Shown here piece by piece: positions 18,286-20,920 of a stretch of DNA of 20,920 nt. Origin of the DNA: a virus; the IMG/VR virus record IMGVR_UViG_3300004461_000434, positions 1 through 20,920 of that record; one strand, given 5' to 3'. The position numbers and the translations under genes were made by a program. Numbering within the stretch: the stretch's first letter is position 1; each line of letters opens with the position of its first letter. The notes under the pieces were generated by a model. That model ran no database searches and had not been told where the DNA came from. It saw nothing but the letters and a program-made list of their open reading frames with translations.

Positions 18286-18379
18286 TAATAACGCTCCGCA
18301 TAAGATACGTGCGAAAACCAAAGAGAAAACAAATTAAAAAACTAAACTTAAATAGCATGGATTTTATGCCTTGTTATAT
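18286..18379 (+). repeat. attC-like site 1 (left edge of cassette array)
   Basis: R''-like box TAATAAC (18286-18292) followed by G, then a pairing arm GCATAA (18298) with TTATGC (18364), a long central part, and CTTG before the R'-like box GTTATAT (18373-18379). Predicted strand exchange lies after G18373. The central part carries ACTAAACTTAAATAGCATGG, like the leaders of the cassettes downstream. This is the weakest arm pairing of the six sites. Confidence 0.55.
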
Positions 18380-18385
18380 GCTTTT

Positions 18386-18595
18386 ATGGAAAACATACTA
18401 AGAGAAAATACGGAAATAAACGATGATATGCACATGATGTGTGCTGAAGGTTGTTGTGATGAAGAGCCAACTGAACAAGAAATCGAAAGGTTTTTGTGTA
18501 TTGAAGGATGGGCTATGAGTGGATTGCTAGACATAGATTTTGATGATTTTCAAAGTGTATGGAGGTGGAGATGTGGGATAGCTAGAGCAAGGTAA
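18386..18595 (+). CDS. Cassette 1 gene, unknown acidic protein (69 aa)
   Basis: The ATG at 18386 (MENILRENTEIND) lies 6 bases after the R' box of site 1; the frame is open to a TTG at 18371 inside the recombination box, which I reject. The protein is strongly acidic with a Cys-rich patch (MMCAEGCCDEEP) and a Trp-rich end (FQSVWRWRCGIARAR). I recognise no family. The codon use is AT-rich and unlike the phage genes to the left. It is the only gene of a 273-bp cassette. Confidence 0.55.
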   Translation: MENILRENTEINDDMHMMCAEGCCDEEPTEQEIERFLCIEGWAMSGLLDIDFDDFQSVWRWRCGIARAR

Positions 18596-18599
18596 TTAC

Positions 18600-18652
18600 C
18601 TATAACGTTAAGTATAAACGGTCGTTTTAATGCCGTTTATACAGTGTTACCC
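18600..18652 (+). repeat. attC-like site 2
   Basis: R'' box CTATAAC (18600-18606) then G; arms GTATAAACGG (18612-18621) and CCGTTTATAC (18633-18642) pair perfectly over 10 bp around an 11-base loop; R' box GTTACCC (18646-18652). The R'' TATAAC matches six bases of the reverse complement of the site 1 R' box, which would be its partner in the excised circle. Confidence 0.75.
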
Positions 18653-18674
18653 TTAGTTTTAAAAAAGATTTAAT

Positions 18675-19340
18675 ATGACAGAACAAACGATTTATAACGA
18701 AGATTGGCAAATAGGCACGAAGCGTATTGCAAATGATAGCGTTGACTTAGTAGTAACTGACCCACCTTACGGAATGGCATTTCAAAGCAACCACCGAAAA
18801 GTAAAACATAAAAGTATCCAAAACGACACGAACCTTGATTGGTTGGGTGGTTGGGTTAAAGAACTAAAACGTGTTTGTAAAGACGAAGCACACCTTTACA
18901 TTTTTTGCTCGTGGCATCACATAGATAAATTTAAGCAAGAAGTAGGTGCTTTATTTAATGTGAAAAATATTTTGATTTGGGAAAAGAACAATACTGGAAT
19001 GGGTGACCTTGAAGGAGATTATGCACCGAAATATGAAATGATACTTTTCTGTAGTAACGGAACAAAAAAATTGAAAGGTGGGCGTGATTCTAATATACTA
19101 AAAGCTAAAAGAACACAGAATGAAAACCACCCAACAGAGAAACCAATTAACCTAATAAGCTATTTGATTGAAAAAAGCAGTAACAAAGGTGATTTAGTTT
19201 TGGATACTTTTGCTGGGAGTTGTGGAACTGCGATTGCAAGTAGACAAAAAGAAAGGAATTGTATTTGCTTTGAAATTGAAGAAGATTACTGCAAAGTAGC
19301 GAATGAAAGATTATTTGCAACATCACTATCCCTTTTTTAA
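18675..19340 (+). CDS. Cassette 2 gene: DNA methyltransferase (N6-adenine or N4-cytosine)
   Basis: The 221-residue protein is a beta-type DNA methyltransferase. Motif IV DPPY (29-32) contacts the target base. HPTEKP (152-157) is motif X. LDTFAGSCG (176-184) is motif I, which binds S-adenosylmethionine; it has Cys where most relatives have Gly (FxGSG). Order DPPY before FxG is that of the beta group. DPPY is compatible with N6-adenine or N4-cytosine targets. No recognition domain or cognate restriction gene is seen, so an orphan enzyme that protects phage DNA from host restriction is likely. It fills a 750-bp cassette. Confidence 0.9.
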   Translation: MTEQTIYNEDWQIGTKRIANDSVDLVVTDPPYGMAFQSNHRKVKHKSIQNDTNLDWLGGWVKELKRVCKDEAHLYIFCSWHHIDKFKQEVGALFNVKNILIWEKNNTGMGDLEGDYAPKYEMILFCSNGTKKLKGGRDSNILKAKRTQNENHPTEKPINLISYLIEKSSNKGDLVLDTFAGSCGTAIASRQKERNCICFEIEEDYCKVANERLFATSLSLF

Positions 19341-19343
19341 TAT

Positions 19344-19402
19344 TAAGGGTAACGTTGAGTACATGAGCCTGTGCGTAGCATGGCTTATGTATATTGTTAT
19401 AC
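19344..19402 (+). repeat. attC-like site 3
   Basis: R'' box TAAGGGTAAC (19344-19353) is the exact reverse complement of the first 10 bases of the left junction of its cassette (18646-18655). Arms ACATGAGCC (19361-19369) and GGCTTATGT (19382-19390) pair over 9 bp with one G-T. R' box GTTATAC (19396-19402). It starts 3 bp after the methyltransferase stop codon. Confidence 0.85.
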
Positions 19403-19425
19403 ACGCACAAATTAAAAAAGTAGAT

Positions 19426-19644
19426 ATGGAAAAATATAGCGATTTCGGGAGAATGATGACGGGTTTCGATAATAGTTCTGACCACGCATTTTACGGACAC
19501 CACAGCAACCCAGAGTACCAACAGAACCAACAAATGGAAGGTATGAGCGAGGAAGAATATAAAGAGTACACGAAGAAGCAGAGCGAAAAGGAACAAGAAC
19601 AAAAACAAATAGGTGAGGAGATTGATGAATCTATGCCTTTTTAA
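19426..19644 (+). CDS. Cassette 3 gene, unknown polar protein with SSB-like acidic tip (72 aa)
   Basis: The ATG at 19426 (MEKYSDFGRMM) is chosen because the upstream part of the frame crosses attC site 3. The protein is polar, with Gln/Glu/Lys-rich helical parts (SEEEYKEYTKKQSEKEQEQ). Its last residues are GEEIDESMPF: acidic residues before a final Pro-Phe, much as in the docking tip of SSB proteins. No other family is known to me. It may bind an SSB partner or simply mimic the tip. AT-rich, in a 310-bp cassette. Confidence 0.55.
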   Translation: MEKYSDFGRMMTGFDNSSDHAFYGHHSNPEYQQNQQMEGMSEEEYKEYTKKQSEKEQEQKQIGEEIDESMPF

Positions 19645-19655
19645 TTTTTGTAGTT

Positions 19656-19712
19656 TATAACGCTCCTTGTATGTGGAGCGAGGAACGAGTTACATTATAC
19701 AAATTGTTAGCT
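19656..19712 (+). repeat. attC-like site 4
   Basis: R'' box TATAAC (19656-19661) then G; outer arms TTGTAT (19667) and ATACAA (19697) pair over 6 bp; within lies a further hairpin, CGCTCC with GGAGCG (19661-19666 and 19675-19680). R' box GTTAGCT (19706-19712). The R'' shares TATAAC with the reverse complement of the site 3 R' box. Confidence 0.7.
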
Positions 19713-19749
19713 TTCCGTTTTGGATTGCTAACCACTAAACTTTATTAAT

Positions 19750-19950
19750 ATGGGAAAACTAGAATTTGCAAAAGCTATTACAGAACAAGACTTAGGGGTT
19801 ACCGCATCAAGCGTAATGAGTGACTGCTATAAATATGGAATGACTTACGGCTGTGATGTAGACTGTCCAGTACTTAAAAGCGGTAACTGTGAACTACAAG
19901 ACACAGACAACAAAGAGCTTTATAAAGAAGCTATTAAAAATGAAAGCTAA
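19750..19950 (+). CDS. Cassette 4 gene, unknown cysteine-containing protein (66 aa)
   Basis: The N-terminal part is helical (KLEFAKAITEQDLGVTASSV). The middle has four cysteines (CYKYGMTYGC, then CDVDCPVLKSGNC; five with the last), a small putative metal- or disulphide-containing patch. I know no family. The start has the leader ACTAAACTTTATTAATATG, nearly identical to that of cassette 5. The stop codon TAA lies inside the R'' box of site 5. It is the sole gene of a 362-bp cassette. Confidence 0.6.
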   Translation: MGKLEFAKAITEQDLGVTASSVMSDCYKYGMTYGCDVDCPVLKSGNCELQDTDNKELYKEAIKNES

Positions 19951-20074
19951 CGGTTAATGTATGAATAGTAAGGCATACTAAGCAAACCTTACAAGCGAAA
20001 ATGTTAACTAAGTAGCTTGTTTAATATTGAATTGAGATAGGTCGAGCCTTATTATTTTATACATCTTGTTATCA
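19942..20074 (+). repeat. attC-like site 5
   Basis: R'' box GAAAGCTAAC (19942-19951) is the exact reverse complement of the first 10 bases of its cassette junction (19706-19715). A long imperfect stem joins ATGTATGAATAGTAAGGC (19957-19974) with the arm GCCTTATTATTTTATACAT (20046-20064). The differences leave unpaired bases of the kind found in attC stems. R' box GTTATCA (20068-20074). It is the longest of the sites (133 bp). Confidence 0.85.
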
Positions 20075-20097
20075 TTACTATACTAAACTTAATAAAT

Positions 20098-20331
20098 ATG
20101 CACACATTCAAGAAAAACGATTTAATACATAGAACAGCCTACGAGTTTACAGGACGTAAAAGGAACGGTAAATGTGCCTTTATGCTACAAATAAAAGGTA
20201 AAGGATGGAGAAAGGTAGCTAGTGGAAATATGAATGACTACACTGCTGTAATTCACTTACTGAAAACAAACGAATACACTACACACGAGGAAGCTAGAGA
20301 ATTATTAATAAAAGAGAAGTTTCTCAATTAA
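20098..20331 (+). CDS. Cassette 5 gene, unknown basic protein (77 aa)
   Basis: The protein is basic and seems alpha/beta (MHTFKKNDLIHRTAYEFTG at the start, then strands AFMLQIKGKGWRKVASG, and helices NDYTAVIHLLK and HEEARELLIKEKF). I recognise no family. The leader ACTAAACTTAATAAATATG is shared with cassette 4. The stop codon is part of the R'' box of site 6. It is the only gene in a 310-bp cassette. Confidence 0.6.
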   Translation: MHTFKKNDLIHRTAYEFTGRKRNGKCAFMLQIKGKGWRKVASGNMNDYTAVIHLLKTNEYTTHEEARELLIKEKFLN

Positions 20332-20384
20332 TGATAACATTGAAGCAAACGCCGTTTCAATGGCGTGTTTGCTGAATGTTATAC
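20329..20384 (+). repeat. attC-like site 6 (right edge of cassette array)
   Basis: R'' box TAATGATAAC (20329-20338) is the exact reverse complement of the first 10 bases of its cassette junction (20068-20077). ATAACATT pairs with AATGTTAT and AGCAAAC with GTTTGCT, separated by a small mismatch. The tip is ACGCC/GGCGT around GTTTCAAT. R' box GTTATAC (20378-20384). The 18-bp tip sequence recurs directly afterwards. Confidence 0.85.
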
Positions 20385-20404
20385 GCCGTTTCAATGGCGT
20401 TTTT
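20383..20404 (+). terminator. Intrinsic terminator between cassette array and terminase genes
   Basis: ACGCC (20383) pairs with GGCGT (20396) around GTTTCAAT, followed by TTTT. The same 18 bases, without the T tract, form the tip of attC-like site 6 at 20349-20366. It would end transcription from the array and isolate the terminase genes, though the stem is only 5 bp. Confidence 0.5.
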
Positions 20405-20427
20405 CGAATATTACCAAAAAAAAAGAC

Positions 20428-20811
20428 ATGCCTACAAAGACAAATAAAACCGTACACAATAAAAAGCGAGTGTTAAAAGCACTCGTGAAATCGTTGGGGA
20501 TAGTTACGACAGCGTGCAAAGAAACAGACATTTCGACGACTCAATTTTATCATTGGATAAAGACAGACGAGGAATTCAAAAAAGACGTTGAATCTGTCGG
20601 GGACGTGGCACTCGATTTTGCCGAGAGTAAACTATTAGAAAACATCAAAGAGCAAAAAGAGACATCTATAATTTTCTACCTTAAAACAAAAGGCAAAAAA
20701 CGCGGGTACATTGAGAAAACAGAAGTTGACACCAAAGTCACAACGGTACAATTTGCGATAAATAAACCCGTATCGGATGACGACCAAGACCAGGAAATCC
20801 CGACGGTTTAA
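20428..20811 (+). CDS. terS: Terminase small subunit
   Basis: The ATG at 20428 (MPTKTNKTVHNKKRV, 127 residues) is chosen; the frame is open upstream to 20365 but crosses the attC-like site and terminator. It has the homeodomain-like HTH usual in TerS of the phBC6A51 type: VLKALVKSLGIVTTACKETDIS, then TTQFYHWIKTDEEFKKDVE (about 15-58), followed by a helical region (ALDFAESKLLENIKEQ) and an IIFYLKTKGKKRGY block. TerS binds phage DNA and guides TerL for packaging. The stop overlaps the start of the large-subunit gene (TAATG). Confidence 0.85.
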   Translation: MPTKTNKTVHNKKRVLKALVKSLGIVTTACKETDISTTQFYHWIKTDEEFKKDVESVGDVALDFAESKLLENIKEQKETSIIFYLKTKGKKRGYIEKTEVDTKVTTVQFAINKPVSDDDQDQEIPTV

Positions 20812-20920
20812 TGGTTGAGATCAATTTGCCTAAATGGCGCGAGGTTGTCAACGAACCGTTTTGGTCGATGGAAAACAACCGGGACGACATCATTTTCAAT
20901 TGGGGTGGTCGTGGTGGTGG
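20811..20920 (+). CDS. terL: Terminase large subunit, N-terminal end (partial)
   Basis: The frame starts in the TAATG overlap with TerS and runs out of the window after 36 codons. The visible part is MVEINLPKWREVVNEPFW at the start and then DDIIFNWGGRGGG at the end. GGRGGG is the beginning of the Walker A motif (GGRGxGKS) of the ATPase domain of TerL, the packaging motor. The position after TerS and the sequence leave little doubt. Confidence 0.85.
   Translation, partial: MVEINLPKWREVVNEPFWSMENNRDDIIFNWGGRGG

Follow-up and report, generated by a model that had tools for sequence, protein, structure and literature searches.

An exact 18-bp sequence occurs twice, in two adjacent hairpins, where an array of small cassettes ends shortly upstream of the phage gene terS. 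Does this repeat record how the array came to lie beside the phage gene, or how one of its sites arose? We examined the locus in a 20,920-nt stretch of the virus record IMGVR_UViG_3300004461_000434, positions 1 to 20,920, which we call the window. A sequence-only reading of this DNA had proposed either that the array inserted next to a terminator hairpin or that an attC site was formed from a terminator.

The cassette array and its last site

The two copies of ACGCCGTTTCAATGGCGT were found where the sequence-only reading had placed them, at 20349-20366 and 20383-20400. No third copy with up to three mismatches was present in the window (0.03 matches expected from shuffles). The first copy caps an attC-like site that can fold (A; DNA fold −14.2 kcal/mol, z −4.6). 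The second forms a hairpin of its own (m), which directly adjoins the first, and the joint fold has z-scores of −4.85 on the plus strand and −5.07 on the minus strand. The second copy had been described as terminator-like and followed by T residues; the T residues are there, but the stem is followed by no more than four (TTTTCGAA), and the window's m was missing from the output of a generic terminator scan. The features are compiled in Table 1.

Table 1. Positions of the cassette units, the terminal hairpins and terS in the window
Feature	Position	Strand	Basis
First ORF unit, 74 aa ORF	18373-18606	+	R'/R'' complementarity 6 bp
Tip CGTTTTAATG of attC-like site 5' of methylase	18623-18632	+	
DNA methylase unit (N6_N4_Mtase)	18646-19353	+	R'/R'' complementarity 12 bp
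ORF unit, small ORF	19396-19661	+	R'/R'' complementarity 6 bp
ORF unit, 66 aa ORF	19706-19951	+	R'/R'' complementarity 10 bp
Last ORF unit, R' GTTATCATTA to R'' TAATGATAAC	20068-20338	+	ends complementary over 10 bp
ORF in last unit, 77 aa, no family	20098-20331	+	
A, terminal attC-like site	20332-20384	+	folds; AAC/GTT triplets; homologous A kept with downstream gene in related phages
R'' box TGATAAC of A	20332-20338	+	
Conserved tip CGTTTCAATG of A	20353-20362	+	CGTTTYAATG at the tip of terminal attC-like sites, dozens of viral contigs
R' box GTTATAC of A	20378-20384	+	
m, mini-hairpin adjoining A, sharing the last R' bases	20383-20400	+	GTT to tip 9 nt in 53/56; five covarying stem pairs
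m tip, identical to A tip over 10 nt	20387-20396	+	
Short T run 3' of m, weakly terminator-like	20400-20404	+	sequence; not listed by terminator scan
terS, phage gene 3' of the two hairpins	20428-20811	+	PHROG 4044 terminase small subunit, E 1.5e-6

Upstream of terS, AAC (R'') and GTT (R') triplets stand at the unit ends within imperfect palindromes, and the ends of all five units are complementary over 6 to 12 uninterrupted R'/R'' pairs. Sites at 18598-18656 (z −3.05), 19344-19402 (z −2.8) and 20332-20388 (z −4.6) fold; for those near 19650 and 19945 folding is weak or absent. The block 18593-19356, which holds the methylase unit, was 91% identical to Tenacibaculum phage JQ, whose own array has attC tips reading CGTTTTAATG. 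The methylase shared 84% protein identity with its counterpart in contig L255. In both relatives the upstream attC with this tip travels along with the methylase unit, and the downstream sites are unrelated. The 77-aa ORF of the last cassette had no relatives beyond the sibling contig described below.

The closest and sole sibling in IMG/VR (L006/L008) carries both 18-bp copies and differs from the window by a single base (A/T at 20407) over 18643-20920, the 2.3 kb that they share. This contig stops precisely at window position 18643, where the attC preceding the methylase unit has its R' side. The assembly break at a cassette boundary suggests that the array is variable in the population.

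We looked for a tyrosine recombinase (PF00589), which the intI gene of a complete integron would encode, and found none in 19 records, many of them fragments: the window, its sibling, phage JQ and 16 others. We therefore infer that the recombinase is supplied by the host. From phage JQ and the gene content, marine flavobacteria are the likely candidate hosts. IntI1 can use phage attC sites (PMC9892861).

A recurring double hairpin in viral contigs

The complete 18-mer was present in four viral contigs, namely the sibling, L005 and two in which its context looks coding. L005 holds an unrelated, Treponema-like cassette array in which the 18-mer caps an attC-like site and no second copy lies next to it. 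The sequence-only reading had named such a tip without a terminator copy, at sites of the same cassette elsewhere, as evidence against its interpretation, and L005 is a weak instance of it.

Two CGTTTYAATG tips 18-48 nt apart occurred in at least 120 viral stretches, so that element counts are lower bounds, with a spacing peak at 32-36 among the matches listed. A reversed control motif gave 58 stretches in a complete scan, with scattered spacing. Stems of at least 3 bp on both copies were present at 57 of 128 places among the matches listed and in 3 of 66 for the control. We compiled 56 distinct elements from IMG/VR contigs. They share a common layout: after a small ORF come R'' (AAC), a stem with CGTTTYAATG at its tip, R' (GTTR) and, immediately, a mini-hairpin with the same tip. 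The distance from the R' GTT to the second tip was 9 nt in 53 of the 56 elements.

In the m stem, 88% of cells were paired across the 56 elements. Five stem pairs covaried (107 double-change cells against 37 in shuffles), with a score of 0.99 against 0.23 in shuffles (0/500 shuffles) and at most 0.19 in all slid controls, and the GTTR bases of R' had no covarying partner in the same 56 elements. For these reasons m is a real and maintained hairpin that overlaps the RRY part of R'.

The pair of A and m was the last such hairpin of the array in most contigs; the earlier remark that the repeat sits at an array boundary was right. Dozens of contigs have this architecture in front of unrelated phage genes; among those downstream of it are core genes of phages, for Erf-like annealing proteins, NinG, TerS, holin, antirepressors and ParB, and the ORFs upstream include methylases, Mom, Dam and MazG. 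The two hairpins of the window thus appear to be one case of a recurring double-hairpin array end, neither an isolated accident nor a terminator that the phage already had.

Two other hairpin arrangements were observed. ORF-less units (L168:5931-5959, L067:10119-10147, L122 and others) consist of a 9-bp R'/R'' stem plus one base under a CGTTTTAATG cap and lie directly between two attC-like sites, like a cassette minus its ORF. Tandem hairpins with CGTTTYAATG tips about 23 nt apart (GTCCCACGTTTCAATGTGGGAGCC...) occur in isolate viral records (L178, L195, L220, L226, L229 and L246) with no attC context.

Could m be the relic of an ORF-less cassette, that is, an R' and a tip with a decayed R''? 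Complete R'-CGTTTTAATG-R'' hairpins exist in many related contigs, and the pairing of m extends up to GTTR/YAAC without including it. However, the complete hairpins have the GTT+7 geometry with a 9-bp stem and one extra base, whereas m has GTT+6, and the position of the cut is identical in unrelated arrays, which argues for selection rather than decay. We regard this origin as rather unlikely.

The earlier judgement that the repeat is not plain chance was right. The 18-bp match comprises 10 conserved tip positions and four base-paired stem positions, not 18 independent matches. Beyond the tip, A and m shared no stem pair in 35 of the 56 elements, one in 12 and two in 8; four shared pairs were seen in the window only (1/56). 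In a cross-pairing null, in which A of one array was matched with m of another, the probability of four or more shared pairs was 0.0097 per array, so that 0.55 such arrays were expected in 56 and one was seen. We conclude that the identity in the window combines the conserved tip with either a modest coincidence or a rare local conversion. Since the stems of A and m are mostly unrelated, local duplication does not hold as a general rule.

A template switch or conversion between the adjacent, tip-identical hairpins may have copied the stem of one to the other in this phage. The C variant of the tip and the four stem pairs are indeed the same in both hairpins of the window, and between L074 and L179, whose right flanks are 96% identical, both arms of the m stem were swapped together while the tip was kept, hinting at fast, templated stem turnover. 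But stem sharing in the 56 arrays did not exceed the cross-pairing null, and no relative with a before state was seen. We consider such an event rather unlikely in this phage.

Outside the viral contigs, the exact 18-mer was found in 16 stretches among 84,980 bacterial and archaeal species; by context these appear to be coding sequence or unrelated repeats, none of them an attC site or a terminator. The double-tip pattern had no member in 395 Bacteroidota genomes, a phylum-wide sample that may miss the hosts. In a TAAC..tip..GTTA scan the spacing was too loose for the counts to inform, and such a scan is useful only with a stem filter. BLAST of one sequence comprising A and m against annotated phages gave nothing convincing, an Rfam search gave no match, and no relevant paper on the tip sequence was among the literature matches listed.

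Probable exchange units and empty alleles

We compared related contigs with near-identical right flanks. They have the whole of A and m in common, and similarity is lost just left of the R'' AAC. Identity was 97.2% over 1219 bp in L253/L267 and 98.3% over 1475 bp in L169/L237; the pairs L175/L176, L235/L269 and L162/L209 also break left of the R'' AAC. In 14 pairs whose right flanks average 94% identity, the corresponding value was 0.89 in the attC body, 0.96 in m and 0.39 in the 115 nt left of R''; random pairs gave 60% for A and 68% for m. The A bodies of L210 and L262 differ despite nearly identical flanks. Similarity breaks off at AAC on the right side and at GAGTAA|C on the left side, where five contigs have their sequence in common up to GAGTAACG. 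Exchange at attC sites is thus seen in related lineages, with R'' AAC breakpoints, and for the window itself the evidence of exchange is only the methylase unit common to phage JQ and L255.

Shared blocks with an attC upstream of the ORF were found in L045/L134, L039/L094 and L028/L107, and in the methylase unit. Several cassettes that occur in two contexts bring their upstream attC with them, and the moving unit is likely to be an attC with the following ORF, as judged from few independent exchange events. This is the reverse of the canonical order, in which the ORF moves with its 3' attC, and resembles the reverse integron of Treponema denticola.

Using the L262 downstream gene as query, we obtained 592 relatives and retrieved 80 of them irrespective of tip. 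Four of these 80 (L335, L342, L351 and L352) are empty alleles of this locus, with flanks 91-100% identical to those of filled alleles. In the empty alleles the left gene ends in GAGTAA and the right gene starts 25 nt later, with no hairpin between them. The direct junction of left flank and A that had been predicted was not found; the actual empty sites are also without A. Since the empty sites carry neither hairpin, the hairpins arrive with the array in this lineage.

The other contigs were picked via the tip, so that its conservation among them is biased; in the tip-independent sample, the eight distinct filled alleles, the exact tip was found on m in 7/8 and on A in 6/8. The element is not obligatory as a boundary, because one filled allele (L338:2368-2712) has a cassette without either hairpin and in L332/L333 the A tip is changed to CTTTTTAATG.

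Does m mainly terminate transcription, separating that of the cassettes from the downstream phage gene? At least five T residues in the 8 nt after the hairpin were present for 25% of m hairpins (background 8%), a promoter-like TAnnTTTG motif followed in 22% (background 9%), some downstream genes are convergent, and in the L262 lineage TATATTTG follows m in filled alleles and is missing from empty ones. On the other hand, most m hairpins are followed by few T residues and the stem measures only some 5 bp; termination would require neither the constant spacing from GTT nor the overlap with R'; and, according to a review (PMC8876359), transcription is not terminated by canonical attC sites. We find a mainly terminating role doubtful.

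No hairpin of this kind was found before terS in nine TerS relatives (L009, L010, L011, L067, L109, L113, L166, L222 and L242), where the sequence-only reading would have looked for a single copy. In L161 (TerS 46.5% identity), which has an array upstream, both hairpins are present with different stems. Among the relatives found, none was close enough to show the window's exact site in an empty state, and the one sibling has the same array, so our conclusion for the window is drawn by analogy: its two hairpins would have come with the array and would stay with terS. That a phage terminator already stood in front of terS when the array landed beside it, or that the last attC was built from that terminator, is highly improbable: the short T run after m in the window and the T enrichment noted above speak for it, but the hairpin-free empty sites already contradict it in one other lineage, the nine TerS relatives are without the hairpin, three quarters of m hairpins are without a strong T run, and the identical tip precedes unrelated genes.

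A probable boundary element and its relation to known systems

Taken together, these findings make it probable that the segment 20332-20400 serves as the boundary element on the right-hand side of a phage cassette array (CALIN) that is integron-like and has no integrase, although the architecture, spacing, covariation of m, retention of both hairpins and AAC breakpoints come mostly from related phage lineages. A host recombinase of the IntI type would exchange units of attC and following ORF at the AAC of A, acting on folded single strands. Because m overlaps RRY and is without an R'' partner, it would pair that part of R' internally and thus close the core-gene side to insertion. It may also insulate transcription where T residues are abundant, weakly so in the window. 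More tentatively, the two hairpins could be a new kind of array-anchoring site, with the loop CGTTTYAATG read by a protein (the recombinase or a host factor). If so, hairpins of phage arrays would be recognized by their tip, whereas the tips of canonical attC sites are variable.

Phage cassette arrays are already known, but not how they are bounded and kept off core genes. With a recognizable end element, such arrays can be located directly in viral data, filled alleles paired with empty ones and candidate recombinases tested. Because DNA methylases, Mom, Dam and MazG-like proteins are encoded in the cassettes, the element may mark exchangeable phage counter-defence loci.

The attI site of integrons is double-stranded, does not form a hairpin and lies beside intI. 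Like attI, the element described here stays in place at an array end, and cassettes are exchanged at its side; unlike attI, it consists of two hairpins, with no adjacent intI and no non-hairpin L/R core. With a Rho-independent terminator m has in common a small GC-rich hairpin and, in the window, some T residues after it, but most m hairpins are without a T run, and m has a fixed geometry relative to R' and a conserved tip.

The CALINs described in phage genomes (Qi et al. 2023, PMC9892861) likewise have attC-like sites and cassettes, methylases among them, and no integrase. That article also describes repeated GTTRRRY motifs at array boundaries, one of them inside a predicted terminator; a conserved tip and a boundary of attC and mini-hairpin do not appear in the parts consulted, and in the present arrays, as distinct from those described there, the ORF moves with its upstream attC. 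In the reverse integron of Treponema denticola (PMC4909258), as in the present arrays, array genes are oriented unusually with respect to the integron, and the R' and R'' that flank a cassette are complementary. The arrays described here differ from it in being phage-borne and integrase-less and in ending in a double hairpin.
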